64,000 nt of DNA from Planctomycetota bacterium (GTDB lineage Bacteria > Planctomycetota > Planctomycetia > Pirellulales > Pirellulaceae): NCBI GenBank assembly GCA_016872725.1, contig VGZC01000010.1, positions 1 to 64,000 of the forward strand, given 5' to 3'. The notes under the pieces are model-generated. The model was not told the DNA's origin. It saw nothing but the letters and a program-made list of their open reading frames with translations, and did no database searches. Shown in pieces: positions 15 to 39,477 of this stretch (the first letter of the stretch is position 1; every line of letters begins with the position of its first letter). Made by a program: the position numbers and the translations under genes.

Positions 15-1436
15 ATGAGTCCCTTGCGATCACAACCAGCCCTGGATGCGGGGGATTCGGCAATGGCGGAGCCGCCTGGGCGGGAGCATCGCGGGCCGCT
101 GCGTCGGCTTGTGCGTTGGTTTGTCGCCGTCTATTATCCGCGCATGGAAATCGCGGATGGCGACCGCATTCCGCAGGGCGGTCCCGTCCTGCTTTGCGCG
201 AATCACTGCAATTCGCTGATCGATCCGGTGATCATCGGTATCGCGGCGCGGCGCCCGGTCCGCTTCATGGCGAAGGCGCCCCTTTTCGACCACCCGCTCC
301 TCGGGCCCGCGATCACGGCGCTGGGCATGGTTCCCGCGTTTCGCGGCACCGACGATCCGTCGCAGGTTCGCCGCAATCTCGAGAGTCTCGACGTGGGCGC
401 GAAGGTGCTCGTCGAAGGCCACGCGATGGGGATCTTCCCGGAGGGGAAATCCACGGATCAATCGCACCTGGAGATGATCCGATCCGGCGCCGCGAGGATG
501 GCCTTGCAGGCGGCCGAGTCGGGCGCGCGGGACGTTTGCGTCGTTCCCATTGGACTGACCTATGAACGGAGGGAACGGTTCCGAAGTGCGGTGCTCGTGC
601 GCGTCGGTGAGCCGATCGGGGTCAACGCCTTGCTCGCCGCCCATGGCGGCAATGAGCGCGCGGCGCGCCGCGAACTCACGTCGCAACTGGAATCTCGGCT
701 CAAACAGATTGTCGTTCACCTCGAGGAACCGCTGTGGGAGCCGTGGTTCGAGTATCTCGAGCTGCTGGTGCCGGCTCGGCGCGACGCGCCGCATGGCCCC
801 GCGCGCCGTCTTTGGCAGCGCAAGCGCATTGCGGACGCGATCAACTTTTTCCTCGCCAGCGACCGCGCGCGGGCCGATTCGATCGCCTGGGAAATCGCGG
901 ATTTCCACCGGCGAGTCCGGGAAATCGGCCTCGCGCTCGACTCGCCCCTGCTCCACAACCGGGGTCTCCGAACGGCGCTGCCGCTCCTGGCCAGTCTGGC
1001 GTGCCTGCTGCTGCTCTTCATTCCGGCCCTTTGGGGCACGCTCTATCACGTCGTTCCGTTCGTCGTCGTCCGCGCGATCGCCTCGCGTATGGATGCGCGG
1101 ACGACGCAAACCACTTCGACGCACCGACTGATGGTGGGCGCGCCGTTCTATCCGGTCTGGTATGCCGTTGTGACCGTCATGCTCCTTTTCTGGAACGCGC
1201 GTCTGGCGTTCGCCTCGCTCCTTCTCGCGCCGTTCACGGGGCTCGTCGCGTTCCACTATTGGCCTCGAGCGGTCCATACGATGGTGCTCGCCTACCACCA
1301 CGCGCGCGCCCTCGTGTCCCGCGGAGAATTGCTCGACCTGCGGCAACGTCTGACGGCCCTGCGGGAGCGGCTTGGGGAGATGGCCGACGAGTATCGGCGA
1401 GTCGCCGAGGAACCGCGTCCATCGGGCAAACCCTAA
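15..1436 (+). CDS. PlsC-like 1-acyl-glycerol-phosphate acyltransferase with C-terminal membrane domain
   Basis: Probably transfers an acyl chain to (lyso)glycerol-phosphate at the inner membrane during phospholipid synthesis. The PlsC signature is visible: NHCNSLIDP at residues 63-71, an HX5D spacing as in the larger Gat1/Gat2-like bacterial homologues rather than the HX4D of short PlsC, and FPEGKS near residue 140. At 473 residues it is about twice a minimal PlsC. The C-terminal third holds hydrophobic stretches (about 320-350 and 380-420), followed by a helical tail. The first ATG is at 15, but a second in-frame ATG at 63 gives a protein that starts just before the conserved part, so the start is uncertain. 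The acyl acceptor cannot be read from the sequence. Confidence 0.85.
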   Translation: MSPLRSQPALDAGDSAMAEPPGREHRGPLRRLVRWFVAVYYPRMEIADGDRIPQGGPVLLCANHCNSLIDPVIIGIAARRPVRFMAKAPLFDHPLLGPAITALGMVPAFRGTDDPSQVRRNLESLDVGAKVLVEGHAMGIFPEGKSTDQSHLEMIRSGAARMALQAAESGARDVCVVPIGLTYERRERFRSAVLVRVGEPIGVNALLAAHGGNERAARRELTSQLESRLKQIVVHLEEPLWEPWFEYLELLVPARRDAPHGPARRLWQRKRIADAINFFLASDRARADSIAWEIADFHRRVREIGLALDSPLLHNRGLRTALPLLASLACLLLLFIPALWGTLYHVVPFVVVRAIASRMDARTTQTTSTHRLMVGAPFYPVWYAVVTVMLLFWNARLAFASLLLAPFTGLVAFHYWPRAVHTMVLAYHHARALVSRGELLDLRQRLTALRERLGEMADEYRRVAEEPRPSGKP

Positions 1437-2995: not shown

Positions 2996-3107
2996 CGGGC
3001 GGCGCGCTTTCGACCTGTATTTCCGCTACACTGCGTGCGGGCGGCTTCAAAGGGCGGAGCCGGTGCGGTCCGTCAACGGAAGGCGAGATCTTCGCCGGGG
3101 ACTCGCC

Positions 3108-3833
3108 ATGCTCAAGAAGGCCATCCTTCCGCTGTTGATCGCGGGCGTCGGCTTGGCCGCCCTCCATGGGCTCGGTATCACGCTCGATCTTCAGTGCCTC
3201 GCGCGCCGAGAATCCGACCTCCGCGCTTTCGGGGACGACCATCCCGTGCTCGTGTGGTTCATCGCATTCGCCGCGTACGTCGCCGTCACCGGCCTTTCGC
3301 TTCCCGGCGCGACGCCCATGTCGCTCCTCTACGGCTGGCACTTCGGTTGGCTCGGCGGCGTCGTGCTCGTCAGTTTCGCGTCGACGGCCGGAGCGACGGT
3401 TGCCTTCCTGCTCAGTCGCTTCCTTTTCCGCGACGCGATCCTCGCCCGGTTCGGCGACCGGTTCGCGGCGTTCAATCAGTCTTTGAAAAGGGAAGGGCCC
3501 TTCTTCCTGTTCACGTTGCGGCTGATACCGGCGGTGCCCTTCGTCGTGATCAACGCCGTCATGGGTCTGACGCCGATCCGCGTGAGGACGTTCTGGTGGG
3601 TCAGTCAGCTCGGCATGCTTCCGGGAACGGCCGTCTATCTCTACGCCGGATCAAGCTTCCCCAGCCTGCAAACGCTGGCCGATCAGGGTATCTCCGCCGT
3701 ATTCACGCGGACTCAACTGGCCCTAATCACGACGGCATTCGTACTGCTCGGCGCGTTTCCGCTCGCCGTGCGCGTTACGATGGCGTGGATATCCGCGTTG
3801 TGGCGCGTTCCACGTCCAGATAAGAAGGCGTGA
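3108..3833 (+). CDS. VTT/SNARE-associated (DedA/TVP38-like) membrane protein
   Basis: Integral membrane protein of the VTT (TVP38/TMEM64) family; members are implicated in lipid scrambling and membrane homeostasis. I start it at the ATG at 3108 because it opens directly into a membrane segment (MLKKAILPLLIAGVG); reading from the longer frame at 2934 would add an Arg-rich stretch with no signal. Several membrane helices follow. The family core is present, including the LPGATPMSLLYGWHFG re-entrant region, the FLLSRFLFRD segment and RLIPAVPFVVINAVMGLTPI. The length of 241 residues is typical. Its stop overlaps the first codon of the decayed glucosidase downstream. Confidence 0.83.
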   Translation: MLKKAILPLLIAGVGLAALHGLGITLDLQCLARRESDLRAFGDDHPVLVWFIAFAAYVAVTGLSLPGATPMSLLYGWHFGWLGGVVLVSFASTAGATVAFLLSRFLFRDAILARFGDRFAAFNQSLKREGPFFLFTLRLIPAVPFVVINAVMGLTPIRVRTFWWVSQLGMLPGTAVYLYAGSSFPSLQTLADQGISAVFTRTQLALITTAFVLLGAFPLAVRVTMAWISALWRVPRPDKKA

Positions 3834-5868
3834 AGGGGCTTCCGCTTGGAATCACGGATCGTCAGTGCCGGTTGTGCTTCGCGCTCGCATTGTGGAACGA
3901 ACGCGATCCGATCCTGAAGGAACGTCTGTTCGGATTGACGGGCCCGCAGGGCAATCACGGCGAGGACGTCAAGGAGTGTTACTACTACCTCGGTTCGACT
4001 CCGACGCACGCGTACATGAAAGCGCTCTACAAGTATCCGCAAGCCGAGTATCCCTACGAAGCCCTGATTCGCGAGAACCGGAACCGCGGCCGCGAGGAGC
4101 CCGAGTTTGAACTGCAGGACACGGGCATCTTCGACGCCGGCCGGTATTTCGACATCTTCATCGAATACGCCAAGGCGTCGCCCAACGACATCCTCATCCG
4201 CATCACGGTCGCGAACCGAGGTCCGGATCCCGCGACGCTCCATCTCCTGCCGACGGTCTGGTTCCGCAACACGTGGTCGTGGGGTGGGCGCCGCGAAGGA
4301 TGCGAACCCAAACCTCGACTTCAGCGAATGGACGATTGCCATATCGAAGCGAGCCACCACACACTCGGGACTTTTTCCTTGTCGGCTGATGCGGCGACAT
4401 TCGGATCGCGCCCCGCCATGCTCTTCACCGAGAACGAATCCCATCTCGCGCGGCTGGCAGGTTCGACGAACAAAAGCCCGTTCGTCAAGGACGCCATCCA
4501 TCGCTGCGTGATCGGCGGCGAAAAGGGGGCGGTGAATCCCGACGCATTCGGCACGAAGGCCTCCGTGCATCAGGTCGTCGTATTGCGTGGAGGCGAATCG
4601 GCCACGCGCGCTGCGGTTATCGAGCGACGGGGAAACCCCGGCCGAACGGTTCGGAATGGGTTTTGACGCCGTGTTCGAGGAGCGTCGACGCGAAGCGGAC
4701 GCGTTCTACGATCATCGGATGCACTCGGCGCTCGAACAGCCCGAGCGGAACGTGGCGCGGCAGGCGTGCGCCGGGTTGTTGTGGAGTAAACAGTTCTATC
4801 ACTACAGCGTTTCCGACTGGCTTCTTGGAGACACCGACCAGCCCCTTCCGCCGGAATCGCGCAAAGACGGCCGCAATCGCGACTGGCCTCATGTATATGC
4901 ACGCCAACGGAGCCATTCCCGCGTACGAGGATGTCGCGTCCAAGTTCTTCGAACACTTCACCGCGATCGCCGACGCGATCAACCATTTGGGAGGAACCGG
5001 GCTCTGGGATGACCAGGACGGATTCTACTACGACGAGATCCATATGGACGGCCGGGAGATCCCGCTGAAGACACGGTCGCTCGTGGGGCTCATCCCCCTG
5101 ATCGCGGTCGAGGTCCTCGACGAGCACGTTCTGGACGGACTTCCCGAATTCCGAAAACGCATGGATTGGTTCCTGAAGCACCGGACCGATCTGGCTGAAC
5201 GCGTTTCCTGCATCGAACCGCTCGACGCGCACCAAGCCGACCATCGTCGGCGGCTCCTCGCCCTTCCATCGCGCGACCGGCTGACAAGGATGCTCGCCTA
5301 TATGCTCGACGAGACCGAGTTCCTTTCCCCCTTTGGAATTCGATCGCTTTCGAAAGTCCACGAACGGGCGCCTTATGTCTTCCGTTGCGGAGGCGAGGAG
5401 TTCCACGTTCGATATGATCCCGGCGAGTCCACCACGGGCCTGTTTGGCGGAAACTCCAACTGGCGAGGTCCCGTCTGGCTGCCGTTGAACTTCCTGATCA
5501 TCGAAGCCCTGGAACGATACCACTATGTCTACGGAGACACCTTGCGTGTCGATTTCCCGACGGGGTCCGGCAACCCGCGGAGTTTGAAGCAGGTCGCCGA
5601 CGAACTCTCCGATCGTCTCGTGCGCCTGTTCGTGCCGGGATCGGATGGCCGTCGTCTATGCCACGGCGATGATCGGTGTTACGTCGACGACGCGCACTGG
5701 CGCGACCTTGTCCTGTTCCACGAGTACTTCCATGGCGAGAGCGGCCGAGGTTGCGGCGCCGGGCACCAGACCGGTTGGACGGCCCTCGTGACGCTCCTCA
5801 TGGAAAAGGCCGCCAAACGAAACGCGCGATCCGCGATGAAGACCACCCATCCATCGCACGGGCACTGA
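3830..5868 (+). pseudogene. Decayed GH63 (MGH1-like) glucosidase
   Basis: Remains of a bacterial glycoside hydrolase family 63 alpha-glucosidase, normally near 880 residues. Homology is split over three frames. 3830 to about 4610 carries RLCFALALWNERDPILKERL, HGEDVKE and STPTHAYMK. About 4610-4885 carries FDAVFEERRREADAFY, LLWSKQFYHY and PESRKDGRNRDW. About 4885-5868 carries FFEHF, GLWDDQDGFYYDE and NSNWRGPVWLPLN. The N-terminal 50-60 residues are missing: the reading begins straight after the VTT gene. Two internal segments are also gone, one after GRNRDW and one fused at the word PAYE, which removes the region that holds the family's catalytic Asp. It cannot make an active enzyme as written. 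Family comparison is from memory; sequencing error could explain single frameshifts but not the missing blocks. Confidence 0.88.
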
Positions 5869-6717: not shown

Positions 6718-7431
6718 TCACGGAGTCGGCGGCACCATGCGTTGCACGCGGAATCGCACCGAGGCTCGGCTGTCGGGCCACGGCGGCTCACCCGCGGGCG
6801 GTACCGGGCCCCACGCGCTCCATGACTCGAACGCGCTGCCGGGGCGCGCCGGAAGCGGTATGAGAAAACCGACGATGGACGCCCCGTCCATTTCCGCGAC
6901 AATCGACCGCTCACCTCGCGCGGTGAACAGAAACACGTCGGCCGGTATGACCCAACGACCGCCGTCCGATCGAACGCGTTCGAGATGCAACTCGCCGCGC
7001 TCCGCCGCGCGCTCACGCCGGCCGACCACGGAGCCGAGCGTGAACGAACCGTGGCCGACCGGTTTCACGCTCCCGACGGGAAGTCGGATCTCGACTTCCA
7101 GCCGAAGTAAACTCCCGTCGACCTTCGGCGGGATGTCGGCAAAGCGGAAGAGCGCGAGCCATGCGAGCGCGGCGCTGCCGACGACGCACCCAACCGGCCA
7201 GCCGATGGTCTGCGCGAGCCCGGTCGACGCGAGGAACCACGAGGATACCGCGCCGAGGGCCATACCGATGAATCCGCCGACGAGGGCCATGGCCACGATC
7301 AAGTATCCGGACGCGCCTTCGCGCGACGTCACCTGATACCAGTCGACATACGTTCCCGCGACAAAACCCGCGCTCAACAGGCCGACGAACCCGGTCAATA
7401 CGGTCGCAAGGAGAACGTGCACGATGTCCAT
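6718..7431 (-). CDS. Hypothetical polytopic membrane protein
   Basis: Not recognised. 237 residues from an ATG at 7431. The N-terminal half has three hydrophobic segments (about residues 5-28, 43-68 and 77-98), and the C-terminal half is a soluble, beta-rich region with no motif that I can name. It lies on the same strand as the other small membrane protein (5896-6507) and the two could be co-transcribed, but 210 bases separate them. The coding call rests on the clear alternation of membrane helices and a polar domain and on the absence of a better frame on either strand. Confidence 0.55.
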   Translation of the reverse strand: MDIVHVLLATVLTGFVGLLSAGFVAGTYVDWYQVTSREGASGYLIVAMALVGGFIGMALGAVSSWFLASTGLAQTIGWPVGCVVGSAALAWLALFRFADIPPKVDGSLLRLEVEIRLPVGSVKPVGHGSFTLGSVVGRRERAAERGELHLERVRSDGGRWVIPADVFLFTARGERSIVAEMDGASIVGFLIPLPARPGSAFESWSAWGPVPPAGEPPWPDSRASVRFRVQRMVPPTP

Positions 7432-7828
7432 TCGGGTGCGTGCCTGCCTCAGGAACGACGAACGTGGCCAGTGATCCTAGCAGCCTTCGCCCCTGGAATC
7501 AACGATTCGCGGTGTTCGTCGGATCGGCGGGCGGTCTCGCCGATCCCGCGGGACGTGTGCCCCGGACGGATTCGATCGGCACGTCGCATTCACACGTATG
7601 ACACGGAATCGTCACCCGAAGCAAGCGGCCTTCGGACCATCGCGCGGACGGTGGCCGGACGGTGCACGGCAACGCGGGAAAAAAAACCCGACGGTCTTTG
7701 TGCCCCGAGGGGCCGCACCATCTACCCGGCGCCGCCGAGACGAGCGTGGCGGCGGCGAGAAGAGCATGGCGGCGGCGAGAAGAGCGTGGCGGCGAGATGC
7801 GACGGTTCCGCGGCGCCGGGTCGTTGGC
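7432..7828. other. Intergenic region, about 400 bases, no gene recognised
   Basis: Separates the start of the membrane protein at 7431 from the 3' end of the radical SAM gene. I see no convincing coding frame. The only structure is a short tandem repeat at 7742-7797. The promoter for the membrane-protein gene should lie here, but no clear -35/-10 pair stands out. Confidence 0.5.
7742..7797. repeat. 20-bp tandem repeat, 2.8 copies
   Basis: The unit gagcgtggcggcggcgagaa occurs at 7742-7761, with one substitution at 7762-7781, and again in truncated form at 7782-7797. It sits just past the 3' end of the radical SAM gene and outside any gene I call. It looks like a replication-slippage product. 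Three copies without spacers rule out a CRISPR array. Confidence 0.8.
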
Positions 7829-8881
7829 CTATCGGGTCGTCGCGCCGCGGCAGCTCGAACCGGCCCCCGCCGTGCAGCCGAAGCAATGCGGACCCAGGAC
7901 AATCTCGCGATGCGACAACCTTGCGTAGTCGAAGTCCCCGACGCGCGACGGGCGACCCCGAAATACGCCCAGGTTCAGCATCTGGTTGAAGTCGCAATCG
8001 AACAACCGACCATCCCAGCCCACCGAAAGCGTGTTGCGGCACATCACGCCCGCAACGGCCAGCGGATTGAATGCATCGACCAGCGTCCGCATGTATGGCT
8101 CAAATTGGTTCGTCCTGACGAGATGCTCCAGATACCGACTGATCGGCATGTTGGTGATCGTGAACAGACGACTGAACCGAATTCCGTAACGCGCGTCGAG
8201 CTCGCGCCGGTAGGCCGACTCCAATTCTTTCTGATCCGGAGGCAGGCTTGGCCCCACGGGGTTGTAAACGAGCGTGAGCGTGAGTCCGCTTCCGTCGTGG
8301 CCGTACCCCAGCGCGTTCAGCAGTCCGAGCGATTCGATCGACGCGGCAAAGGCGCCCTCCCCGCGCTGCGCGTCGGTATTGTCCTCAAGATAGCACGGCA
8401 GCGACGCGACGATTTCGACCTGATTGGCCGCGAGGAACTCCGGGAGATCCCGATACCCGTTCGCGCGCAGGATCGTAAGGTTGCACCGATCGATCACGTG
8501 TCGGCCGAGGGCGCGCGCCTCGCGCACGACGTGGCGGAAGTGCGGATTCATCTCCGGCGCGCCGCCCGTGAGGTCGAGTGCGCGGATTTGCGCGTGCTTG
8601 CTCAGGACGTCCAGACAGGCGTCCACGGTCGGCCGGTCCATGAGTTCGCGTCGATCCGGACCGGCGTCGACATGACAGTGAAGGCAGCTCATGTTGCAGA
8701 GCTTGCCGAGGTTGATTTGCAGAATCTCGATTCGATCGGCGGCCGGCGCCGCAATACCGCCATCCCGCAGCTTGTCCGCGAAACGGGGAATGCCGCGCGG
8801 GGACCCAAGGACGACACGTTGCCGATCCGGGCTTGCAAGCGCATCGTCTCGGCGCTGTAGTGACGTGGTTGCCCGACTCAT
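7829..8881 (-). CDS. ArsS-like radical SAM/Cys-rich protein
   Basis: Radical S-adenosylmethionine enzyme of the group annotated as arsenosugar biosynthesis protein ArsS (radical SAM/Cys-rich domain). The [4Fe-4S] motif CNMSCLHC is near residues 62-69, followed by the GGAPEM glycine-rich SAM-binding strand. The C-terminal domain has the diagnostic extra cysteines: GVMCRNTLSVGWDG, FDCDFNQML and HCFGCTAGAGSSC. I start at the ATG at 8881, since the in-frame ATG at 8968 would add an Arg-rich stretch with no homology. The protein then has 350 residues, normal for the family. No arsenic methyltransferase or arsenic-resistance gene lies within the window, so the substrate is uncertain; members without arsenic context may act on other small molecules. 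Confidence 0.85.
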   Translation of the reverse strand: MSRATTSLQRRDDALASPDRQRVVLGSPRGIPRFADKLRDGGIAAPAADRIEILQINLGKLCNMSCLHCHVDAGPDRRELMDRPTVDACLDVLSKHAQIRALDLTGGAPEMNPHFRHVVREARALGRHVIDRCNLTILRANGYRDLPEFLAANQVEIVASLPCYLEDNTDAQRGEGAFAASIESLGLLNALGYGHDGSGLTLTLVYNPVGPSLPPDQKELESAYRRELDARYGIRFSRLFTITNMPISRYLEHLVRTNQFEPYMRTLVDAFNPLAVAGVMCRNTLSVGWDGRLFDCDFNQMLNLGVFRGRPSRVGDFDYARLSHREIVLGPHCFGCTAGAGSSCRGATTR

Positions 8882-30206: not shown

Positions 30207-30332
30207 TCAATAGATCAAGGGCGAACCCAATCGCTTCAGATTCGCCTCGTCGGCGACGATCACAATGTCATACGACGCATTGTACGGCACGGGATCGTGA
30301 TTCGGGAGCATTCCCGAACGACGAGTCGGCAT
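30207..30332 (-). CDS. Possible 41-residue protein coupled to DUF447
   Basis: Small frame whose ATG overlaps the DUF447 stop (TGATG), the arrangement of translational coupling. The product is 41 residues with an ordered-looking centre (NASYDIVIVADEANLKRL) of alternating hydrophobics; I do not recognise it. It could be a real small protein, or the truncated 3' end of a once larger downstream gene. Two inverted repeats overlap the boundary region. Confidence is low because length alone cannot show that it is expressed. Confidence 0.33.
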   Translation of the reverse strand: MPTRRSGMLPNHDPVPYNASYDIVIVADEANLKRLGSPLIY

Positions 30333-30360
30333 CACGAGTGGCGTGGGCTTCCCCCCACGC
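30301..30360. terminator. Two inverted repeats between convergent transcription units
   Basis: TTCGGGA-GCAT-TCCCGAA (30301-30318; 7-bp perfect stem, 4-base loop) and GCGTGGG-CTTCCC-CCCACGC (30341-30360; 7-bp stem) lie at the 3' ends of the rightward AAA ATPase and the leftward DUF447 operon. Neither is followed by a U-tract, so intrinsic termination is only possible, not shown. The second overlaps the end of the DUF447 reading frame. Confidence 0.4.
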
Positions 30361-30946
30361 TCCTTCCATTCCCGGCGACATAGTCCGCCAGCAACCGAAA
30401 CGCGCGGTGTTCGCGTTCGCCGCCCGTCTTGTCGACGAGTCTGGCGAATTCCTCGAACGCTCGGGCGATCCGATCGGGCGCGATATAGGTAAGTCGTGTC
30501 GCGAGAATGGCCCCCTCGACGACCGCATGGTGGGCGCGATTCCAACCCACGAAGTCGCGGAATCGATGACGCCCCTCCACCGCGCATTCGAAACGCGCGC
30601 GGGTTCCGTCCATGTCCGTCCGCGTCACGCGGAACTCGAATGCCCGGCAACAGTCGGCCATGACCCGTCCCTCAATCGACTCGGCGGAAATAAACTCGGG
30701 AAACCGATCCCATGCGCCGACGACCGCGCGCGCCAGAATCTCGACGTCGTCCGTGACATGAAAAACGCCCGCGCGGGTCCGCGCCAGGTTGTCGAATGTC
30801 CGCGATTCCGTGAACGGCCTCAGGACGAACGACGCGTAATCCCCGCGGACCACGGGCCCCATCGCCGCGATGCGAGGCGTCCCGTCCGCGTCGATCGTCG
30901 TCACCAGTCCCTCGATGATGATCCCGGATTTCCGCATGTCGGACAT
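30332..30946 (-). CDS. DUF447 protein of the H4MPT C1 gene set
   Basis: Flavin-reductase-like protein of family DUF447, found in methanogens, H4MPT-using methylotrophs and Planctomycetota. The conserved core is IIIEGLVTTIDADGTPRIAAMGPVV, FRPFTESRTF-like LRPFTESRTF, NLARTRAGVFHVTDDVE, and VGWNRAHHAVVEGAILATRL at the C-terminal side. Its exact role in H4MPT metabolism is not known. The frame continues upstream into the PabA stop (a TTG overlaps it), but ATG codons at 30955 and 30946 follow GGGAGG and start nearer the conserved domain; I choose 30946. It is the last sizeable gene of the PAB/DHPS-like operon. Confidence 0.78.
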   Translation of the reverse strand: MSDMRKSGIIIEGLVTTIDADGTPRIAAMGPVVRGDYASFVLRPFTESRTFDNLARTRAGVFHVTDDVEILARAVVGAWDRFPEFISAESIEGRVMADCCRAFEFRVTRTDMDGTRARFECAVEGRHRFRDFVGWNRAHHAVVEGAILATRLTYIAPDRIARAFEEFARLVDKTGGEREHRAFRLLADYVAGNGRSVGGSPRHS

Positions 30947-30972
30947 GGACGGCATGGCCTCCCGCGCTCGAA

Positions 30973-31635
30973 TCAAAACGTCACGGGGACCCGGATCGGA
31001 ACGGGAGGCTCCCGCCGAGGCGCGATCGGAACCTCGTCGGCGAATCGATCACGGGGAACAACGGGCCGGCCGGCGAGTGTGAGGAAGTTGGCGAGGATCG
31101 CGTAGCCGTGTTCGGTCAGCACCGATTCCGGATGGAACTGGACGCCGAAGACGGGCATATCACGATGACCGATCGCCATGATCGCGCCGTCGTCGGACCA
31201 GGCGAGTACTTGAAGGCACTCGGGGAGACTCGCGTGTTCCACGACCAGCGAATGGTAGCGGCACGCCGTGAACGGATTGGGGACACGATCGAAGAGCGGA
31301 TGCTCCGACCGGCGCACCTGGCTCGTTCGGCCGTGCATGGGAGCGGAAGCTCGGACAATCCGCCCACCCAGCGCGGCGGCGATCGTTTGATGGCCAAGAC
31401 AAACGCCGAACATCGGAATGCGGCTCCAGAACCGGCGCACCAGATCGATCGAATCGCCGGCTTCGGCGGGCGTGCAAGGCCCGGGCGAAAGGACGATCGC
31501 GTCGGGAGCCTCGCGATCGATCGCGTCGCATGGGATGGCGTCGTTCCGAATCACGCGCGTCGGTTCTCCGAGCCGCTCGAAATACCGCGCCAGGTTGTGC
31601 GCGAAGCTGTCGTAGTTGTCGATGAGCAGAATCAC
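30973..31635 (-). CDS. pabA: Aminodeoxychorismate/anthranilate synthase glutaminase subunit (PabA-type)
   Basis: Class I glutamine amidotransferase of 220 residues that supplies ammonia to PabB for 4-amino-4-deoxychorismate, the p-aminobenzoate precursor. It starts with LLIDNYDSFAHNLARY, has the catalytic Cys in MFGVCLGHQTIA, and ends the catalytic triad with His-Glu in VQFHPESVLTEHG. PabA and TrpG are not separable by sequence alone, but the partner gene upstream and the DHPS-like gene point to PAB for a pterin cofactor. The start is GTG. It follows PabB by 18 bases and precedes DUF447 with overlap. Confidence 0.85.
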   Translation of the reverse strand: MILLIDNYDSFAHNLARYFERLGEPTRVIRNDAIPCDAIDREAPDAIVLSPGPCTPAEAGDSIDLVRRFWSRIPMFGVCLGHQTIAAALGGRIVRASAPMHGRTSQVRRSEHPLFDRVPNPFTACRYHSLVVEHASLPECLQVLAWSDDGAIMAIGHRDMPVFGVQFHPESVLTEHGYAILANFLTLAGRPVVPRDRFADEVPIAPRREPPVPIRVPVTF

Positions 31636-31653
31636 GCGGGCGCGCTCCGGACG

Positions 31654-33081
31654 TCAGGGAGTCAGTGATTTTATCAAACCGACCGCCTTCTGCCACGTTT
31701 CGTCCAGTTCGCGTTCGGCGTTGGATTGGGCCGTGATTCCGCCTCCCACCTGCATCTGCCACCATCCGTCGCGGGCGGTGATCGTGCGGATGAGGATATT
31801 GAGGTCGAGACATCCGTCGAATCCGACATAGCCGAGCGATCCGCAATAGGCGCCGCGCGCGGTGGGCTCGAGTTCGGCGATGATCTCCATCGCGCGCACC
31901 TTGGGGGCTCCCGTGATCGAACCGCCGGGAAACGCGGCGGGAAGCAGATCGAGCGGTTCAACGCCCGGACGCAACGTCCCCTCCACGGCGGAAACGAGAT
32001 GGTGCACATATTCGTACGCTTCGATCCGGCACAACTCGGTCACGCGGATCGAGTCCGGTTCGCAGACTTTGGAGAGATCGTTGCGCAGCAGGTCGACGAT
32101 CATGACATTCTCGGCGCGGTCCTTCTCGCTGGCCAACAGATCGTCCGCCGCGAACAAGCTCGCCTCGGCGAACGTCGATCTTGGACGCGTCCCCTTGATC
32201 GGCCTCGCCTCGACGCGCCTTCCTTGCACGCGCAGAAAACGTTCCGGCGACGCGCCGGCGATTTGGAACGAGCCGGCGTCGAAGTAGGCGGCGAATGTCG
32301 CCGGGTTGCGTTCGCGCATCCGGAGATAGAGCGCGTGGGCGGAACCCGTCGCGCGGCACAAGAGGCGCTGGGCGAGATTCACCTGGAACGCGTCCCCGGC
32401 GCGGATGTACTCGACCACGCGTTCCACCGCGTCGAGATATCCCTGCCGCGGAAAATTGCTCGTGATCCCCGGACCGCGGTCGGTCGGAAACGCGGGCGCG
32501 CGATCGCGCGAGGAGGAGCGCGAGGACCGCGTCGAAGGGGTCCAGACCGGGGCCTGGGAACCCAGCACACGCTCTTGGAACTCATCGAGCCGACGCGCCG
32601 CGCGCCGCGCGCGTCGAGTCGGCTCGGTTTCGGGGAATCCCTGGGATATCAACCAGGTCGCGCCGGTGTCGTGATCGAACGCGACAACCACGTCATAAAG
32701 GCCGATGACGACGGCGGGGATCTCGAATTCATCGAATCGGGCGCGGGGCACGTCTTCAAAGGCGTGGAGCAGGTCGTACGCGAAGAGGCCCGCGGCGCCG
32801 CCCTGGAACGGAGGCAGATCGGGTCGGTGTTCGGCTCGAAACGGCCGGATCGCGCGGTCGATCGCGGCTGGTGCCGCTCGATCCCCGACGGGGAGTTCAA
32901 CCCACGCGAACGGATCGGCGGTCAGGAACGAGTAGCGTCCCAAACGGGGCCTCCGCAACGCGCTGTCGAGGAACAGGCAGTGCGGCATGGCGAGCATTTT
33001 TCGGAAACAGGCGACCGGATCCAGGCCCGCCGCAAGGCGTCTCGCGATCGGCGGATCGGACTCGGGACACGATCGAGTCAT
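31654..33081 (-). CDS. pabB: Aminodeoxychorismate synthase component I (PabB-type)
   Basis: Chorismate-binding enzyme of 475 residues making aminodeoxychorismate with PabA. Conserved C-terminal motifs are RPIKGTRPRS, MIVDLLRNDLSKV, PGGSITGAPKVRAMEII and GAYCGSLGYVG. The Lys in PIKGT is the nucleophilic Lys characteristic of PabB (TrpE has Ala), which supports the PAB assignment. The start at 33081 overlaps the DHPS-like stop as ATGA and follows a strong GGAGGTG. A product would serve H4MPT or folate; the neighbouring DUF6513 and DUF447 genes favour H4MPT. Confidence 0.88.
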   Translation of the reverse strand: MTRSCPESDPPIARRLAAGLDPVACFRKMLAMPHCLFLDSALRRPRLGRYSFLTADPFAWVELPVGDRAAPAAIDRAIRPFRAEHRPDLPPFQGGAAGLFAYDLLHAFEDVPRARFDEFEIPAVVIGLYDVVVAFDHDTGATWLISQGFPETEPTRRARRAARRLDEFQERVLGSQAPVWTPSTRSSRSSSRDRAPAFPTDRGPGITSNFPRQGYLDAVERVVEYIRAGDAFQVNLAQRLLCRATGSAHALYLRMRERNPATFAAYFDAGSFQIAGASPERFLRVQGRRVEARPIKGTRPRSTFAEASLFAADDLLASEKDRAENVMIVDLLRNDLSKVCEPDSIRVTELCRIEAYEYVHHLVSAVEGTLRPGVEPLDLLPAAFPGGSITGAPKVRAMEIIAELEPTARGAYCGSLGYVGFDGCLDLNILIRTITARDGWWQMQVGGGITAQSNAERELDETWQKAVGLIKSLTP

Positions 33082-34580
33082 GGTTCACCTCCATCCGGTT
33101 CGGACGGAGGGAACGACGACGCATCGGGGCGCGGCTCCGAGTCCGCGGCCCGACCGCGCGCGCGCGCCGCGCGGTGCGCGCGTTCGGGCCGGGTGAGGAA
33201 TCCCCAGTCGAGCGCTTCGTCCTGGCGGTACTGCTTCCCCAGCGTAATCGCGGTGATCGCCTTGGCCGCCTCGTAACCAAGGTAAAAGGCGTGGGAGGCG
33301 TCGATGCGGTCCCGACCCGGCGCGTCGGCATCCCATTCCATCAACCGTTTGAAGACGACGAACGGGTCCTCATCGTGCACGTGCAGCCCGCCGCTCACGA
33401 CGTGCAGTTCGCCCGCCTCCGCGAACAACCGAAAATGCGGATCGCGAAGTTCGCTTGCGAGCCGCTCGACGGCCTCCCGCCCCATCGCGATCGGGTCGGG
33501 ATCGCGGAGCAGCACGAGCCGGCCGTCGATGCGTTTGGGCGCGATTCCGCGGCGCACGGCGAAATGGACCAGCCGCCGCGCGACATCGCATTCCCGAACG
33601 CTCGATCGGGCCCAAGGGACTACCTGGGTCGTCAGCACGCTTTGGATCGAAAGTTCCTCACATAATCCGAGCAGCAGGAGATTCACGGCCGCCGAATCGC
33701 AATCGGTCATTTCGGTCAGATTACCGATCCCCATGAGCATCGGCCGATCGGGATGGCGGCGCCGCGCGGCGGCGTAGCGTTCGAGACTTCGGGCGAATCC
33801 GCAACCGATCGGTTCGAGAATCGGGTCGATCCGGAACGGCACGTTTCGATCGGCGAGGAACTCGATCGTCTCATCGAGGCTTGATTCGGACGCGGGTTCA
33901 TCGGGGACGGCGACGACCTCGCAACCCCAATCGGCGGCCATTTCGCGGTTGGAGCGGTTGACCGAAAGAACGAGTTCCGCGCCGGCGCGGGCCGCGTCGC
34001 GGATTTCGCGGGGATCGAAGCTGTCGATCGAAACGCGCATGTCCGCGTCGCGCAGCGCGCGCACGCAATCGCCGACCGCCGACCACGCGCCGCCCGGTTC
34101 GCAACCGACGTCGATCCAATCGGCGCCCGCGTCGCGATACGCCTTCGCGATCCGCACGATGTCCGCGCGGTCCATCCGCGGCGCGTGGTTGATCTCCGCG
34201 AGGATCTCGATCGACCAGTCGTCGAGTCGAGGCGGTTGTGCGCGGCCGCCCAGGAACTCGGGAAGTGCCCGCAAGTCGCGGGGCCCCCGCTCGATGCTCG
34301 CCGATCCCGCGCGGGCGGCGATCGGTTCGAGGTCGCCTTGGCAGTAGCCGGGCAGGATGATGCGACCGGTTTCCGCCGGCGGCTGGATGCGCGCCGCCAC
34401 CCAGGTCGTGGTCATGAGCGCGGCGACGGAGATCGGAAGGACGTCGACGGAATACGTGAACGACTTGGACTCGCTCAGCGATGCGATCTGTTCGCGCAGC
34501 GCGCGGGCCGCCAATCGTCCCGTGACGAAGTGGATATGCGGCGGCGGCGCGGCCGCGCCGGTTGCGTCCCGATCACACAT
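33078..34580 (-). CDS. DUF6513 dihydropteroate synthase-like protein (H4MPT pathway)
   Basis: Protein of 500 residues: an N-terminal DUF6513 region (FVTGRLAARALREQ, then DVLPISVAALMTT) followed by a dihydropteroate-synthase-like TIM barrel (ILAEINHAPRMDRADIV, AGADWIDVGCEPGG, RVSIDSFDPREI, VVAVPDEP). Such proteins occur in archaea, methylotrophs and Planctomycetota that use H4MPT, where they are thought to condense a pterin with an aminobenzoate derivative. Here pabB and pabA lie directly downstream in overlap. The start is the ATG at 34580, 8 bases inside the upstream SDR gene; a GTG one codon earlier is possible. Confidence 0.86.
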   Translation of the reverse strand: MCDRDATGAAAPPPHIHFVTGRLAARALREQIASLSESKSFTYSVDVLPISVAALMTTTWVAARIQPPAETGRIILPGYCQGDLEPIAARAGSASIERGPRDLRALPEFLGGRAQPPRLDDWSIEILAEINHAPRMDRADIVRIAKAYRDAGADWIDVGCEPGGAWSAVGDCVRALRDADMRVSIDSFDPREIRDAARAGAELVLSVNRSNREMAADWGCEVVAVPDEPASESSLDETIEFLADRNVPFRIDPILEPIGCGFARSLERYAAARRRHPDRPMLMGIGNLTEMTDCDSAAVNLLLLGLCEELSIQSVLTTQVVPWARSSVRECDVARRLVHFAVRRGIAPKRIDGRLVLLRDPDPIAMGREAVERLASELRDPHFRLFAEAGELHVVSGGLHVHDEDPFVVFKRLMEWDADAPGRDRIDASHAFYLGYEAAKAITAITLGKQYRQDEALDWGFLTRPERAHRAARARGRAADSEPRPDASSFPPSEPDGGEP

Positions 34581-35412
34581 CACGAGGTTCTTTCCGCGGG
34601 TCGTCGGATGGAGGGGCCGATCCGGTGCTCAGACCGCCGTTCACGGCGATCACCTGCCCGGTTACGAACGCCGCGGCGCCGGACGCGAGGAACCGCGCGG
34701 CGGCGGCCACGTCCTCGGGAGTCCCCCATCGCTGGAGCAGGCTTTCGCGGACGGCGCGACGCTGCCAGTGCTCGGGCGCATTCTCGCCCCACGCCGTTCG
34801 GATCCAACCCGGCGCGACGCAGTTGACTCGGACGCGAGGCGCCATCGACCGGGCCGCGCTGCGCGTGAACGCCATGACGGCGCCTTTCGCCGCCGCGAAC
34901 ATCTCGCCGCTGTCCCCCTCCATGCCCCATTCGGCCTGATCCCAGCCCATGTTGACGATCGAGGCGGCGTACGCGGACGCGGGGCGTTCGCGCATGCGGC
35001 GGCCCGCCAACCGCGTCAACTCGATCGTCCCCACGACGTCGGTCCGCCACAACCGGTCGAGTTTCTCGGCGAACGACGCGCCGACAATCGGGCCGGTCAA
35101 CACATCCGCGCCCGCGTTGTTGATCCACGTGTCGACTCGGCCCCGCCAATTCCACGATTCGGCGACGAGTCTTTCGCGATCGGACGGTTCGGCGATATCG
35201 GCAAGCACGGGGAACGCGTCGCGCCCGACGGCGCGGATACGCTCGGCGAGCGACTCCAGTTCCCCTCGACGGACGCGCGCGTGGATCACGACGTCCGCGC
35301 CGCTCTCCGCGAACGCGATCGCGATGGCCCGTCCGATCCCGCTCGACGCACCGGTCACGACGACCGTGGAGCCCTCCATCGTGGGGTCCGCCGCCTTCAA
35401 CGTTGCCGCCAT
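34573..35412 (-). CDS. Atypical SDR upstream of the DUF6513 gene
   Basis: Short-chain dehydrogenase fold of about 279 residues. The cofactor motif TGASSGIGRAIAIAF, NNAG (INNAGADV) and the C-terminal PGWIRTAWG and VTGQVIAVNGG are all clear. The catalytic pair is abnormal: the YxxxK Tyr is replaced (MFAAAKGAV), and the usual Ser after SIVN is Met-Gly (VNMGWDQ). Its 3' end overlaps the DHPS-like start by 8 bases, so it belongs to the pterin operon. A dihydropterin reductase role, analogous to FolM/PTR1-type SDRs, is an inference from context. I start at 35412; the longer frame to 35613 has no homology. Confidence 0.82.
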   Translation of the reverse strand: MAATLKAADPTMEGSTVVVTGASSGIGRAIAIAFAESGADVVIHARVRRGELESLAERIRAVGRDAFPVLADIAEPSDRERLVAESWNWRGRVDTWINNAGADVLTGPIVGASFAEKLDRLWRTDVVGTIELTRLAGRRMRERPASAYAASIVNMGWDQAEWGMEGDSGEMFAAAKGAVMAFTRSAARSMAPRVRVNCVAPGWIRTAWGENAPEHWQRRAVRESLLQRWGTPEDVAAAARFLASGAAAFVTGQVIAVNGGLSTGSAPPSDDPRKEPRDV

Positions 35413-35611
35413 GGTTCGCTCGAATTCGGGGCGCCGACCAGGGAACCGATCCCGCATTGGGACCGAGGAACTTCGCCCGACCATCGGCTCCCGCGAGCCG
35501 ATTATACCAGGGAACGCGACCTTGATTTGGCGGATGGTCGTCTGCGACAATGGCCTCCGAACGGATCGTCGGCGAGTTCGCGAATCACTGGGAAGCCCGT
35601 CGGGACGGCGC

Positions 35612-36748
35612 ATGGATCCTTCGGCACTGAGGTCGCAGCTCCCGAACGCGGCGTTCGCGTTCCGCGGCTACAACGTCACCAATTTGGGACGTACGCCCGA
35701 ACTGCTCGCCCACACGCTCTACGGCCCGATCGTCGCGGATGCGCTGCGGCGCGCCTCAACGGTTTGCGAGAAGGCGATCGGCCGGCCCGTGGACCTGGTC
35801 GCGCGCGTCGTCGAACGCCGGGAAACGTCTTTGGAATCGTACCACGAAGCCGTTTCGCTGATCGTCGCCGTCGAACAGGCTCAGCTTCGGATTCTCAACC
35901 GGTTCTTTCGCGCCGACTATCGGGACGCCCGATTGGCGTTCGGATACAGCCTGGGGGAACTCGCCGCGCTCGTCGCCTCGGGCGTTTTTGACGAGGCGGA
36001 CGCGGTCCAGATTCCCTTGTTGCTTTCGGCGGACTGCGTCGCGCTGGCGGAGGACGCCGTCATGGCCGTGCTTTTCTCTCGAGGAGATCCCCTGTCGATC
36101 GCGGGCGTACGGCGTCTTTGCCTTGGGATCAACCAGGAGGGTCGCGGTGTGATCGGGATTTCCGCGATCCTCGCCCCCAATTCCATCCTCTTGATGGGGC
36201 AAGGCGACACGCTCGACCGGTTCCGTTCGCGAATGAGGGAATCGATCGGAAGCGGCGTCGCGCTCCGCGAGAACCGTGACCGCTGGCCCCCGCTCCATAC
36301 GCCGATCATGTGGCAGAAGGCGATTCCCGACCGCGCGGCGCATTTGATGCACACGTTGCCGGGCGGCCTGACCGCGCCACACCCTCCCGTCCTTTCCCTG
36401 GCCACGGGACTGGTGAGCTATGACGAAGTGAACGTTCGGGAGACGATCCATCGCTGGATCGACCAGCCGCAACGCCTTTGGGATGCCGTGTATCAGGTCC
36501 TCGCGCTCGGCATCGCGGTGGTGATCCATGTCGGTCCCGAGCCGAACATCATCCCGGCGACGTTTCGCCGGCTCGCGGACAACGTCGACGCGCAAACCCG
36601 GGCAAGCCTGGGTTTGCGGGCACTCTCGGAAATCGCCCGCCGCACATGGCTCGGCGCAGTCCTTCCGAGGCGGACGGCCCTCCTGCGCGCTCCGCGGATC
36701 ATCCACATCCGGCTCGAAGACTGGCTACTCGACCACCCGCCCGGTTGA
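35612..36748 (+). CDS. FabD-like acyl-carrier acyltransferase homologue
   Basis: Malonyl-CoA:ACP transacylase-like protein of 378 residues. The active-site elbow is FGYSLGELAALVASG, with Ser conserved but His of GHSxGE changed to Tyr. A catalytic His is likely in PLHTPIMW. The C-terminal third has VIHVGPEPNIIPATF as in FabD. The N-terminus (FAFRGYNVTNLGRTPELL) also matches the family start. It is not next to other fatty-acid genes, and the family member in this position may use a different donor. The ATG at 35612 opens the conserved domain. It is divergent from the SDR-DHPS operon. Confidence 0.75.
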   Translation: MDPSALRSQLPNAAFAFRGYNVTNLGRTPELLAHTLYGPIVADALRRASTVCEKAIGRPVDLVARVVERRETSLESYHEAVSLIVAVEQAQLRILNRFFRADYRDARLAFGYSLGELAALVASGVFDEADAVQIPLLLSADCVALAEDAVMAVLFSRGDPLSIAGVRRLCLGINQEGRGVIGISAILAPNSILLMGQGDTLDRFRSRMRESIGSGVALRENRDRWPPLHTPIMWQKAIPDRAAHLMHTLPGGLTAPHPPVLSLATGLVSYDEVNVRETIHRWIDQPQRLWDAVYQVLALGIAVVIHVGPEPNIIPATFRRLADNVDAQTRASLGLRALSEIARRTWLGAVLPRRTALLRAPRIIHIRLEDWLLDHPPG

Positions 36749-36848: not shown

Positions 36849-38399
36849 CTACGTTCGCGGCCGATTCGATTCCACCGACTTGCCGCCCAGGATTTCTCGC
36901 CGTGCGGCGGCGATTGCCGCCAGTTTTGACTCGGCAACCCTCGCCGAAGCGATCGGATTATCGGCGAAGGTGGCGAATCCACAGTCCGGCGTGAGCATGA
37001 GCCGTTCAGCGCCGAACCGATCGATGGCTCGCGAAATGCGACCGCGGATCTCGTCGACCGATTCCACGGCGTCCAGCTTTTGATTGACAACGCCGATTCC
37101 GATTCGCCGATCCGGGGGAAGCGACGTGAGTACATCCAACTCGCCCGCGCGCGGCGTGCAAGTTTCGAGGAAGTACACGCCCACCTGTAACTCGTTGAGC
37201 AATGGGAGGAGCGGACGGTAGTCTCCCGCCAAAGCGACCCCTTCGTTGCGGCTCCAGTTCCCTCGGCAGACATGGACGGCCACCCGATCGCGCGGAGCGC
37301 CGGCGACGACGCGGTTCAAGAGCGACGAGGCGAAGGAGAGTTCTTCCGTCGGCTCGCGTTTGGCGCTGAGCGCGCCGCACATGAAGCTGCGGCCTCCCTG
37401 CGGCGCTCCGAACACGACTTCCGTCAACACGGGTTCGTCGAATTGCACAATCGACGCGCCGGCGGCGAGCAAGTCGAACAACTCGGCTCGCAACACGGCC
37501 ACGACGTCGTCGGCCAACATTTCGCGCGAGTCGTACGCGCGATCCGACACACATTCGAGCCACATTGTTCGGGTCAACAGGTAAGGCCCGGGCAATGCGA
37601 CCTTGATCGGCTCGTCCACCATTCGGCGGACGAATGCGAGTTCATGCGCGGCGAGGGGACGATTCCTGGCGATCTTGCCGAATACCGCCGGGTGCCGCAC
37701 TTCCCCCGCCGGGACATCCAGGGCCCGCAATTCCAACTCGAACTTCTCCGGATCATCGACATACGGCAGCAAATCGGAGATCGGAATCAGTTGGCAATTG
37801 TCGAGCCGTCCGCCGACGAAGCTGGCGTAACCGTCCCGCCGTTGTTCGCCGTCCGTGATCACATCGACGCCGGCGCGCTGCTGGGCTTGGACACACAGTC
37901 GAACCGCGTCGTCCGCCGTCTCCTGAAAGGTGTCCTCGACGAGCCGTCCGGAGATGTGCGCGTGTATCGCGTCGAGCATCCACCGGGGACGAGGCCAGCT
38001 TCCGATTCCCATGATGGCCAGGGGCGGCACTTCGGGAGCGGGAACGGGCAACGGAACCGGAGACTCGACCGCTGCGGCCGCGGTCGACGCTCGCGACGGC
38101 CTTGGCGGAGGGGATGGCGGCGCGGTTTCGCGGCCCGATGGTTCGCCGGCCTTGCGCACGAGAAAGCTCCACGACGGACCTGAACGCACCACGGAAAGCA
38201 GCGCGTTGCGCGTCATGCGGCACCAGGCGGGCAGGTCGTCCGCAACCGTCGGTTCGGTGGATTGGATCTCCAACACACCGCCTGGCGGCAACGGATCGAT
38301 GTGTCGACGGATCAGCAACAGCAGGCCGTTGCCGCAGTCCAACGAGCCGCCGTCAAACGTGACGTCGGGCGTCTTCCCGTGCCTCAAGTCGTGGTCCAT
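36849..38399 (-). CDS. TusA-like domain fused to MetE catalytic domain
   Basis: Fusion of 516 residues. Residues 10-85 form a TusA-like sulfur-carrier fold (SLDCGNGLLLLIRRHIDPL, then DDLPAWCRMTRNALLSV). A Pro/Ser/Ala-rich linker (90-130) leads to a cobalamin-independent methionine synthase catalytic domain (135-505). All four MetE zinc ligands are present in their motifs: His and Cys in VAVHVCRGN, Glu in YFLETCTP, Cys in LTPDCGFATF. IGSWPRP and VQFDEPVL are also there. Canonical MetE has a duplicated N-terminal domain that is missing here, as in archaeal core-MetE enzymes. It probably transfers a methyl group to a thiol or persulfide. DsrE and Cys-rich-TusA genes lie just upstream. Confidence 0.85.
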   Translation of the reverse strand: MDHDLRHGKTPDVTFDGGSLDCGNGLLLLIRRHIDPLPPGGVLEIQSTEPTVADDLPAWCRMTRNALLSVVRSGPSWSFLVRKAGEPSGRETAPPSPPPRPSRASTAAAAVESPVPLPVPAPEVPPLAIMGIGSWPRPRWMLDAIHAHISGRLVEDTFQETADDAVRLCVQAQQRAGVDVITDGEQRRDGYASFVGGRLDNCQLIPISDLLPYVDDPEKFELELRALDVPAGEVRHPAVFGKIARNRPLAAHELAFVRRMVDEPIKVALPGPYLLTRTMWLECVSDRAYDSREMLADDVVAVLRAELFDLLAAGASIVQFDEPVLTEVVFGAPQGGRSFMCGALSAKREPTEELSFASSLLNRVVAGAPRDRVAVHVCRGNWSRNEGVALAGDYRPLLPLLNELQVGVYFLETCTPRAGELDVLTSLPPDRRIGIGVVNQKLDAVESVDEIRGRISRAIDRFGAERLMLTPDCGFATFADNPIASARVAESKLAAIAAARREILGGKSVESNRPRT

Positions 38400-38503: not shown

Positions 38504-38866
38504 TCAAAAAGAGACGCATGGCGAACCATCGGAAAGGAACTCAACCAGTCTGGCGCCGCCGACCACGGTCACGCCGTCGACGAGGGCTTGGTCGTCGAGC
38601 TTGCGCCGCTTGAAGCACGGTGAGCATGCGTAGATCGCGCCGCCGGCCGCCACGAAATTGCCCATCAACTCGCGCAGCGGGGCGAAACCCTCCTCGTGAA
38701 TGTCGTCCGCGTAGCCGCGTTGCGTGAGACGAACTCCTTCGTTGGTCAGAAAGACCAGGGTCTGTTTCTCCGAGCCAAGCGCGGCGTTGGCGATGACGAA
38801 GGCGACGGTCGCCTTGTCGGTGTTGTCTTTCGCGCACGTGAGCATGACACAGAACTTGCCGGCCAT
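38504..38866 (-). CDS. DsrE-family protein
   Basis: Small (120 residues) DsrE/DsrF-like protein. DsrE proteins bind persulfides or take part in sulfur relay with TusA. The family fold is visible: FCVMLTCAKDNTDKATVAFVIANAAL, then TLVFLTNEGVRL and a Cys pair in IYACSPCFKRR. A C-terminal GSPCVSF adds another Cys. The ATG at 38866 follows GGAAGGACTAGAG and is two bases downstream of the previous gene's stop. Together with two TusA-domain proteins on either side it suggests a sulfur-transfer chain. Confidence 0.85.
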   Translation of the reverse strand: MAGKFCVMLTCAKDNTDKATVAFVIANAALGSEKQTLVFLTNEGVRLTQRGYADDIHEEGFAPLRELMGNFVAAGGAIYACSPCFKRRKLDDQALVDGVTVVGGARLVEFLSDGSPCVSF

Positions 38867-38868
38867 CT

Positions 38869-39477
38869 CTAGTCCTTCCGTTGAATCCAATAGTGGGGAT
38901 GATGTTGTGCCAGGAGCGCGTGGCCCGTCATCCGGCACCAAGCCGGAATGTCCTCGGTCGCGCCGGGATCACGCGCGACAAGCATGAGTCGCGCGCGGGG
39001 CGTCAACGCACTCATCCGATGACGCAGCCCGAGCACCAAGTCGCCACATGCGATGTCGCCCGCATCCCATGTTTCGTCGGCGAAAACGGCAACGCCCGGC
39101 TCGTCCGACACGGCGACTCGTCCATCCGACGATTCCGATGCGTCATCGGCGCGCTCGGGGTCCGCCGCCGACCACAGGCAGCCCGGCAACGAGTCGGACG
39201 CGAAGCCTTCGCGTTGATTCTCCCGACGCCACACCTCGGCATAGCAGTGTCGTTGACGGAAGTGGGCGTTCAAATGGTCGCGGAACGGATTCGTCGACTT
39301 ACCGAGACCGGCTGCGAGACAATCCAAGCAGCGAGGTTTGTCGCCGAGCCCCATCGCGACCGAGAAGAGGATCTCGTGGCCACAGACATTCCGCGCGCAG
39401 ACGCCACAGGCCGCCGCGCGTACGGCGTCGACTCTCGCCTGCAACCGCTCGATGATTCCCTCGTCCGTCGGTTCCAT
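38869..39477 (-). CDS. Cys-rich protein with C-terminal TusA-like domain
   Basis: Protein of 202 residues. The N-terminal part has paired cysteines that look metal-binding: CGVCARNVCGHE (near residues 23-34) and CLDCLAAGLG, plus an HLNAHFRQRHCY stretch. The C-terminal 70 residues resemble TusA: DIACGDLVLGLRHRM then EDIPAWCRMTGHALL, closely matching the TusA-like domain of the downstream MetE fusion. The CPxP motif is reduced to a single Cys (CGDL). It starts 10 bases after the DUF1559 stop and ends two bases before the DsrE start, so the run is probably one transcript. No known family name for the N-terminal domain. Confidence 0.75.
   Translation of the reverse strand: MEPTDEGIIERLQARVDAVRAAACGVCARNVCGHEILFSVAMGLGDKPRCLDCLAAGLGKSTNPFRDHLNAHFRQRHCYAEVWRRENQREGFASDSLPGCLWSAADPERADDASESSDGRVAVSDEPGVAVFADETWDAGDIACGDLVLGLRHRMSALTPRARLMLVARDPGATEDIPAWCRMTGHALLAQHHPHYWIQRKD

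Follow-up and report, generated by a model that had tools for sequence, protein, structure and literature searches.

A bacterial operon that ends in a TusA–MetE fusion and may handle selenium

Introduction

TusA and DsrE are sulfur relays in characterised cases, and MetE activates a thiol on zinc and normally methylates a thiol. The locus described here lies in a window of 64,000 nucleotides (the whole stretch of DNA that was analysed, positions 1 to 64,000 of contig VGZC01000010.1 of a planctomycete) and raises the question of what a TusA domain does in one chain with the core of MetE. The operon that ends in this fusion is widespread among bacteria and apparently undescribed. A first reading of the window from the sequence only knew of no described pathway of this kind, and literature searches among open-licence papers found no paper on a TusA–MetE fusion or on a MetE with selenocysteine (Sec). 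The features of the operon are as follows:

36849..38399, minus strand: TusA::MetE fusion, open reading frame with an ATG start, 516 amino acids
37377..37379, minus strand: codon of Cys341 of the fusion (position computed from the residue number)
38504..38866, minus strand: DsrE-family protein, PF02635, about 120 amino acids from its ATG (E=1.5e-14, Pfam)
38869..39477, minus strand: second TusA-like protein, here called TusN, 202 amino acids (PF01206, 31.2 bits)

Architecture and conserved residues of the fusion

The fusion is composed of a TusA domain (residues ~11–85, with Cys22), a linker (~86–122) and a MetE core (~127–503). The TusA family PF01206 matches residues 27–83 with 30.6 bits, against a gathering cut-off of 28.6, and Meth_synt_2 (PF01717) matches with 104.2 bits in two stretches, the best being 234–479 (both Pfam). 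The linker is rich in proline and alanine, and residues 89–105 have a pLDDT below 50 in an AlphaFold2 model, which was built from an alignment of 73 fusions and reached a pTM of 0.85 and a mean pLDDT of 84.8; the description of a TusA-like domain joined by a flexible linker, given in the sequence-only reading, is borne out. The nearest solved structure to the model is the core synthase 3RPD (Z 36.5, rmsd 2.7, 324 aligned residues, 26% identity), in keeping with the earlier remark that the N-terminal (folate) half of MetE is absent. Full-length MetE is also among the best solved structural relatives, and each solved entry found matches either the MetE or the TusA part, never both.

All four zinc ligands of the methionine synthase site, likewise recognised in that reading, are present as H376, C378, E412 and C473, and H, C, E and C are kept in 119/119 aligned rows (116 of them distinct, the set including three identical pairs). 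The homocysteine-site residues were taken from the list in the excerpted text of Price 2021 (PMC7857596) and placed on the fusion by motif. According to this mapping S134, E185 and D321 are kept, E185 and D321 being present in all 119 rows and S134 invariant in 73; since these residues are apparently kept, homocysteine may be the methyl acceptor. The active cysteine of the fused TusA, Cys22, sits in a CG context (CGNG / CG) in place of the CPxP motif of TusA, and is kept in 105 of the 106 rows aligned, out of 110 hits. By fold and model, the protein is a MetE core with a TusA domain, minus the CPxP motif of TusA. The best NCBIfam models for it are named methionine synthase, the highest score being 161.7 bits against a cut-off of 406; as all of these models stay below their cut-offs, such a label would be unsafe for the fusion.

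Distribution

Full-length fusions with 59–63% identity were found in six of 97 other related genomes (G007, G050, G051, G068, G073 and G089). In GTDB, at least 518 loci were found to have a relative, a number that may take in other MetE cores owing to the search patterns, and the best 80 of these were analysed. Of the 80, 72 have an unbroken fused frame; in the other eight it runs into a contig end (L054, L074, L096, L113), contains a TAG (L077, L078, L115) or changes frame (L082). The same architecture, which the sequence-only reading had proposed to look for in other genomes, is thus present there, and the assembly artefact joining two genes that it had allowed for is ruled out by these fusions. 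A viral origin was also considered and dropped, as two scans of viral contigs gave no relative. Going by record annotation, the best 80 of the at least 518 loci span about eleven phyla, some represented by a single MAG: Planctomycetota, Pseudomonadota, Myxococcota, Chloroflexota, Verrucomicrobiota, Acidobacteriota, Actinomycetota, Rokuibacteriota, Binatota, Latescibacterota and Melainabacteria. Afipia, Bordetella and Burkholderia records are among the relatives.

Operon partners and a sister form

The conserved order of the operon is TusN, DsrE and, in last place, TusA::MetE; the sequence-only reading had included neither of the two upstream genes, nor Cys341 (see below). TusN has a Cys-rich N-terminal part followed by a C-terminal TusA domain with a CG motif, and its gene ends 2 nt before the ATG of the DsrE gene (38866). 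The TusA Cys of TusN is kept in all 94 rows that were aligned out of 110 hits, and these hits may include some copies of the fused TusA. The DsrE-family protein, a likely partner of TusA, carries an ACSPC (CxxC) motif in the window, and both Cys of this motif are kept in 104/104 rows aligned, of 105 hits.

Within the best 80 GTDB loci, a DsrE gene lies near the MetE gene in 72; the eight loci without one lie at contig edges, except for L063. The distance upstream of the fusion is at most 450 nt in 51 loci (the abutting L087 stands outside this count) and larger in 20, all of them proteobacterial by record annotation. The inserts between a distant DsrE and the fusion encode either a PhnD/PhnE/PhnC-like importer or a membrane protein together with a 565-aa protein; the second kind, seen at positions 3151–5592 of L071 and in similar proteobacterial loci, consists of a small CxxCLAP membrane protein and an apparently exported protein of 565 aa without a Pfam match. 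No corrinoid protein was found among the conserved operon genes, beyond which a sample of the nearest genes was scanned.

In planctomycetes a sister form (type B, 22 rows) was observed, in which the TusA domain is joined to an OsmC-like one and MetE is encoded by its own gene downstream. OsmC was matched in 21/22 and DsrE in 18/22 of the type B loci. This form was seen only in Planctomycetota, the sole phylum that was searched in such a way as to reveal it, and on the tree it stands apart from the fusion (type A). Taken together, the conserved fusion, the sister operon with separate genes and the conserved Cys and Zn sites support a functional link between TusA and the MetE core.

Cysteine or in-frame TGA at position 341

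Position 341 is occupied by Cys in 114 of the 119 rows (116 distinct) and by TGA in five, and by nothing else. The in-frame TGA falls exactly at 341 in L042, L043, L044, L152 and L169, all of the sister form. None of nine MetE-like paralogues compared has a Cys at this place (L004 has FMA there); a tenth row, L020, was left out because it held a wrong reading frame. The TGA rows stand in two separate places of the tree, with at least two Cys/TGA changes needed, and the frame past the TGA stays conserved to the end of the gene. L042–L044 represent three genera, and across the gene only 41–45% of their third codon positions at conserved residues agree; a stretch of 19 nt a little behind the TGA is nonetheless the same in all three, and the gene has no longer identical run. 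The 19-nt run can form a stem (ACCCGC/GCGGGT) with the loop CGTGAT. The conservation of nucleotides after the TGA suggests selection on the RNA, as in bacterial SECIS elements. SECIS-like folding was obtained for 5/5 TGA rows but also for 94 of 105 Cys rows, and was discarded as proof of Sec since it does not discriminate. The AlphaFold2 blocks around Cys341 have mean pLDDT values of 57 and 69.

Because the TGA stands exactly at a conserved Cys and the 19-nt stretch is unchanged in three relatives, the codon is read here, with high confidence, as selenocysteine. It is very unlikely that the five TGAs, which bear on the Sec part of the argument only, are sequencing errors or pseudogenes. All five come from multi-contig genomes, and genes of this kind have a single TAG stop at another position in three loci (L077, L078, L115), the MetE frames of L077 and L078 being otherwise conserved. 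The TGA-bearing genome G325 has neither a SelD over the cut-off nor a clear tRNA-Sec; among the other genomes with TGA rows, G024, G045, G048 and G194 have tRNA-Sec, and SelB is below cut-off in G024. Against errors or decay, however, stands the fact that five out of five fall on one conserved Cys among ~370 positions and in two separate clades, with the frame conserved through to its end and the nucleotides behind the TGA unusually conserved in three. The type B MetE is a probable selenoprotein family, an addition to those known. A 2026 inventory lists 119 prokaryotic selenoprotein families and subfamilies (PMC13188914); its tables, as excerpted, contain no such MetE selenoprotein, and its main text makes no mention of PF01717, PF01206, methionine synthase, homocysteine, MetE, TusA or SirA.

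Co-occurrence with selenium machinery

The window's own genome encodes SelA, SelB (316 bits), tRNA-Sec (67.2 bits) and a SelD with an in-frame TGA of its own. In the related genomes SelB is over its cut-off in 9/10 carriers of either type and 45/88 non-carriers (p=0.018). For a sample of the phylum (n=216), SelD was found in 29/33 carriers of either type and 117/183 non-carriers (p=0.004), which means that it is present in 64% of non-carrier planctomycetes. The family of the Afipia genome has SelB in 14/15 carriers and 80/233 non-carriers (p=6.8e-6); in that of the Bordetella genome, where SelD is common anyway, the counts for SelD are 5/5 and 109/146, a difference that is not significant (p=0.24). 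Three of the four comparisons show SelB or SelD to be overrepresented in carriers; the p-values given are too small, as genomes that share ancestry do not count as independent. The Afipia-family sample, the strongest test, has no in-frame TGA in any of its 15 carrier matches; hence the link to SelB reflects more than a need for Sec in the enzyme itself.

Of 50 carriers, taken from the best 80 loci, 47 have a SelD over its cut-off, and 27 of the 28 carriers chosen for the purpose have a tRNA-Sec that scores more than 60 bits, a threshold that was set by us and below which other matches reach 55. Carriers without a SelD over the cut-off are G119, G125 (the same genome as G277, or nearly identical to it), G143, G325, G346 and G356; SelB is lacking in G024 and G620 and SelA in G089. 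Locus L191 (G573) was chosen for inspection since its SelB shares a contig with the fusion. The order there is TusN, DsrE, a membrane protein, a relative of the 565-aa protein, TusA::MetE and SelD, the last (438 bits) following the fusion by ~130 nt on the same strand, and tRNA-Sec, SelB, SelA and FdhE lie on the other strand within the next 9 kb. SelB occurs in the flanks of 5/80 loci, of which four belong to one Dehalococcoidia/Chloroflexi lineage and the fifth is L106, with tRNA-Sec; a weak partial SelB match at the end of L129 (68.6 bits) was left out of the counts. When 116 nearby genes were sorted by Pfam family, 111 of them drawn from the 119 nearest and five being others, no family had more than three members and no common selenium theme emerged. 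Considered as selenium-specific neighbours, the LysR protein of L061 (80.7 bits, with the LysR_Sec_metab cut-off at 250) and, as a selenate-type binding protein, the PhnD-like neighbour (85.2 against 250 for ABC_peri_selen) were both rejected. On the whole, a selenium link of the operon is fairly well supported.

Some further observations concern tRNA and SelB genes of carriers. In L195 (positions 6769–8716, G102), a second, divergent SelB (277 bits) adjoins a match to the tRNA-Sec family (54.8 bits) with the anticodon UCG, possibly a pair for sense-codon recoding. SelBs scoring 260–293 bits were found in 5/15 fusion carriers (G102, G546, G610, G658, G724) and 5/233 non-carriers of the Afipia-family sample. 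In the operon of L095, the DsrE gene and the fusion have between them a 94-nt tRNA-Cys (GCA, 5459–5552) whose variable arm is long, and L142 has an identical stretch at 3083–3176. This tRNA-Cys was called by ARAGORN only, with no Rfam match at the gathering score, and the L095 genome has no SelD over the cut-off.

Proposed function

The sequence-only reading had suggested that the fusion methylates a carrier-bound sulfur, or a thiol made on it. The functional link between TusA and MetE is supported, and the idea of a chalcogen held by the carrier is retained; selenium now appears likelier than sulfur, and demethylation likelier than methylation. The preference for selenium follows from the SelB or SelD enrichment seen in three of the four comparisons and from the TGA at the extra Cys in five relatives. 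As a best guess, methyl transfer takes place on or beside the carrier-held chalcogen. The fusion lacks the folate half, the conserved operon genes include none for a corrinoid protein, and the homocysteine residues are kept by motif; a carrier-held methyl-selenium could therefore methylate homocysteine. Demethylation (carrier-Se-CH3 to homocysteine) is the more likely direction.

The operon as a whole is tentatively read as a chalcogen relay that handles selenium, ends in a methyltransferase and would free selenium from methylated forms; we put the chance of this at somewhat less than even. Methylated selenium species, such as methylselenol or similar, would enter the cell from its surroundings or arise when selenide is methylated by accident. 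The methyl-selenium would be bound through a selenium–sulfur bond to the TusA Cys and/or to Cys341 (Sec in some), and homocysteine activated by zinc would accept the methyl group to give methionine, without corrinoid or folate. Selenium would stay on the carrier as a perselenide and then pass via DsrE and TusN to SelD. Both the direction and the substrate of the methyl transfer are what we infer, and the relay would probably lead to SelD. The full and more specific claim, that of a corrinoid- and folate-free methyl-selenium demethylase in about ten phyla, whose unfused form includes a new selenoprotein family and which hands the methyl group of TusA-held CH3-Se to homocysteine and its selenium to SelD, is possible but doubtful. 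To our knowledge, few enzymes outside corrinoid systems recover selenium from methylated forms to SelD; if true, the proposal would provide a concrete and widely conserved gene set for this retrieval.

Two independent facts from excerpts of the literature fit the proposed mechanism. Selenium depletion in M. maripaludis was reported to raise the transcripts of SdmABC-like genes together with those of a TusA/TusD pair, the authors stating that the reason for the rise of the Tus transcripts was not obvious (PMC11097638), and Kountz and Balskus linked methyl-selenide to a cluster from the enzyme superfamily that includes MetE (PMC10418091).

The operon may instead deal in sulfur, the MetE core methylating homocysteine or a carrier-built thiol, or demethylating a methyl-sulfur compound such as methanethiol, while TusA and DsrE move sulfane sulfur and the tie to selenium is ecological only. 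Such a role is consistent with the characterised TusA and DsrE relays, which are known to handle sulfur (see PMC4175335), with the kept homocysteine residues, with the several carriers that lack SelD and with the lack of SelD enrichment in the Bordetella family. It is nevertheless considered unlikely, as SelB is enriched in carriers that have no TGA, SelD is the next gene in L191 and relatives have TGA at Cys341.

The genetic evidence cited for demethylation would equally suit a detoxification of selenium, in which carrier-bound selenide is methylated to methylselenol for export; thiol methylation is the usual direction of MetE, and some proteobacterial operons include the small CxxC membrane protein (c8) and the apparently exported protein (c5). 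Detoxification should not depend on SelB, however; the folate half being absent, there is no methyl-donor domain, nor is there a corrinoid protein among the conserved operon genes, and the kept homocysteine residues suit homocysteine as acceptor, which makes export of this kind improbable. Still less probable is an ordinary core methionine synthase with an inert or structural TusA domain, even though the closest fold, 3RPD, is a core synthase of the MesD kind and the Zn ligands are found in 119/119 rows. Conservation of the TusA Cys in 105/106 rows and of the DsrE CxxC in 104/104 would be unexpected for inert parts, Cys341 is absent from the nine paralogues compared, and the score lies far below the NCBIfam methionine-synthase cut-offs (161.7 against 406 bits). 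Among these accounts the selenium relay with demethylation is preferred.

Comparison with known systems

According to the excerpted text of Price 2021 (PMC7857596), the core methionine synthases MesA–MesD likewise consist of a MetE core without the folate half, with HCEC zinc ligands and Ser/Glu/Asp homocysteine residues, and 3RPD, the nearest solved structure, is MesD. The fusion differs from them in its TusA domain, in its operon with DsrE and TusN, in the Cys/TGA at 341 and in an HxCRGN motif; TusA is not mentioned in that paper. Full-length MetE and proteins of the 1YPX type have the PF01717 fold as well, and 1YPX shares the HxCRGN motif.

The SdmABC system of Methanococcus and the type I mlp clusters, as described in excerpts of PMC10418091 and PMC11097638, also employ methyltransferases of the superfamily that includes MetE, and 87% of the species carrying type I clusters have Sec machinery (PMC10418091). 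These systems include a corrinoid protein, whereas the conserved operon genes here do not, and their methyltransferase is not fused to a carrier as it is here. Type I clusters are reported, in the same excerpts, only from anaerobes, and the fusion is also found in Afipia, Bordetella and Burkholderia records. By analogy, TusN–DsrE–TusA::MetE would be a corrinoid-free counterpart of the methyl-selenide systems of anaerobes. YedF, a TusA(SirA)–DsrE protein linked to SelD (Lin 2015, PMC5322559, in excerpt), resembles the present operon in that both domains occur in selenium-using bacteria. It combines CPxP and CGxC in one chain, whereas here the domains are encoded by separate genes with CG and ACSPC motifs, plus a methyltransferase; the fusion is not YedF.

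Window neighbourhood

The operon is adjoined, at 30332–35613 of the window, by genes for DUF447, PabA/PabB-like, DUF6513/dihydropteroate-synthase-like (TIGR00284) and SDR proteins, which look like a cofactor cluster of the tetrahydromethanopterin type. A link of this cofactor to the operon was considered and rejected: none of the DUF447, DUF6513/TIGR00284 and PabA/PabB-like genes was matched in nine related loci (L036–L044), where one DUF1559 and one SDR match were all that was found beside the operon genes, so that the link looks local. At 34949–36748, on the plus strand and partly opposite the SDR reading frame, lies an open reading frame of 599 amino acids with weak similarity to FabD/acyltransferase (31 bits).
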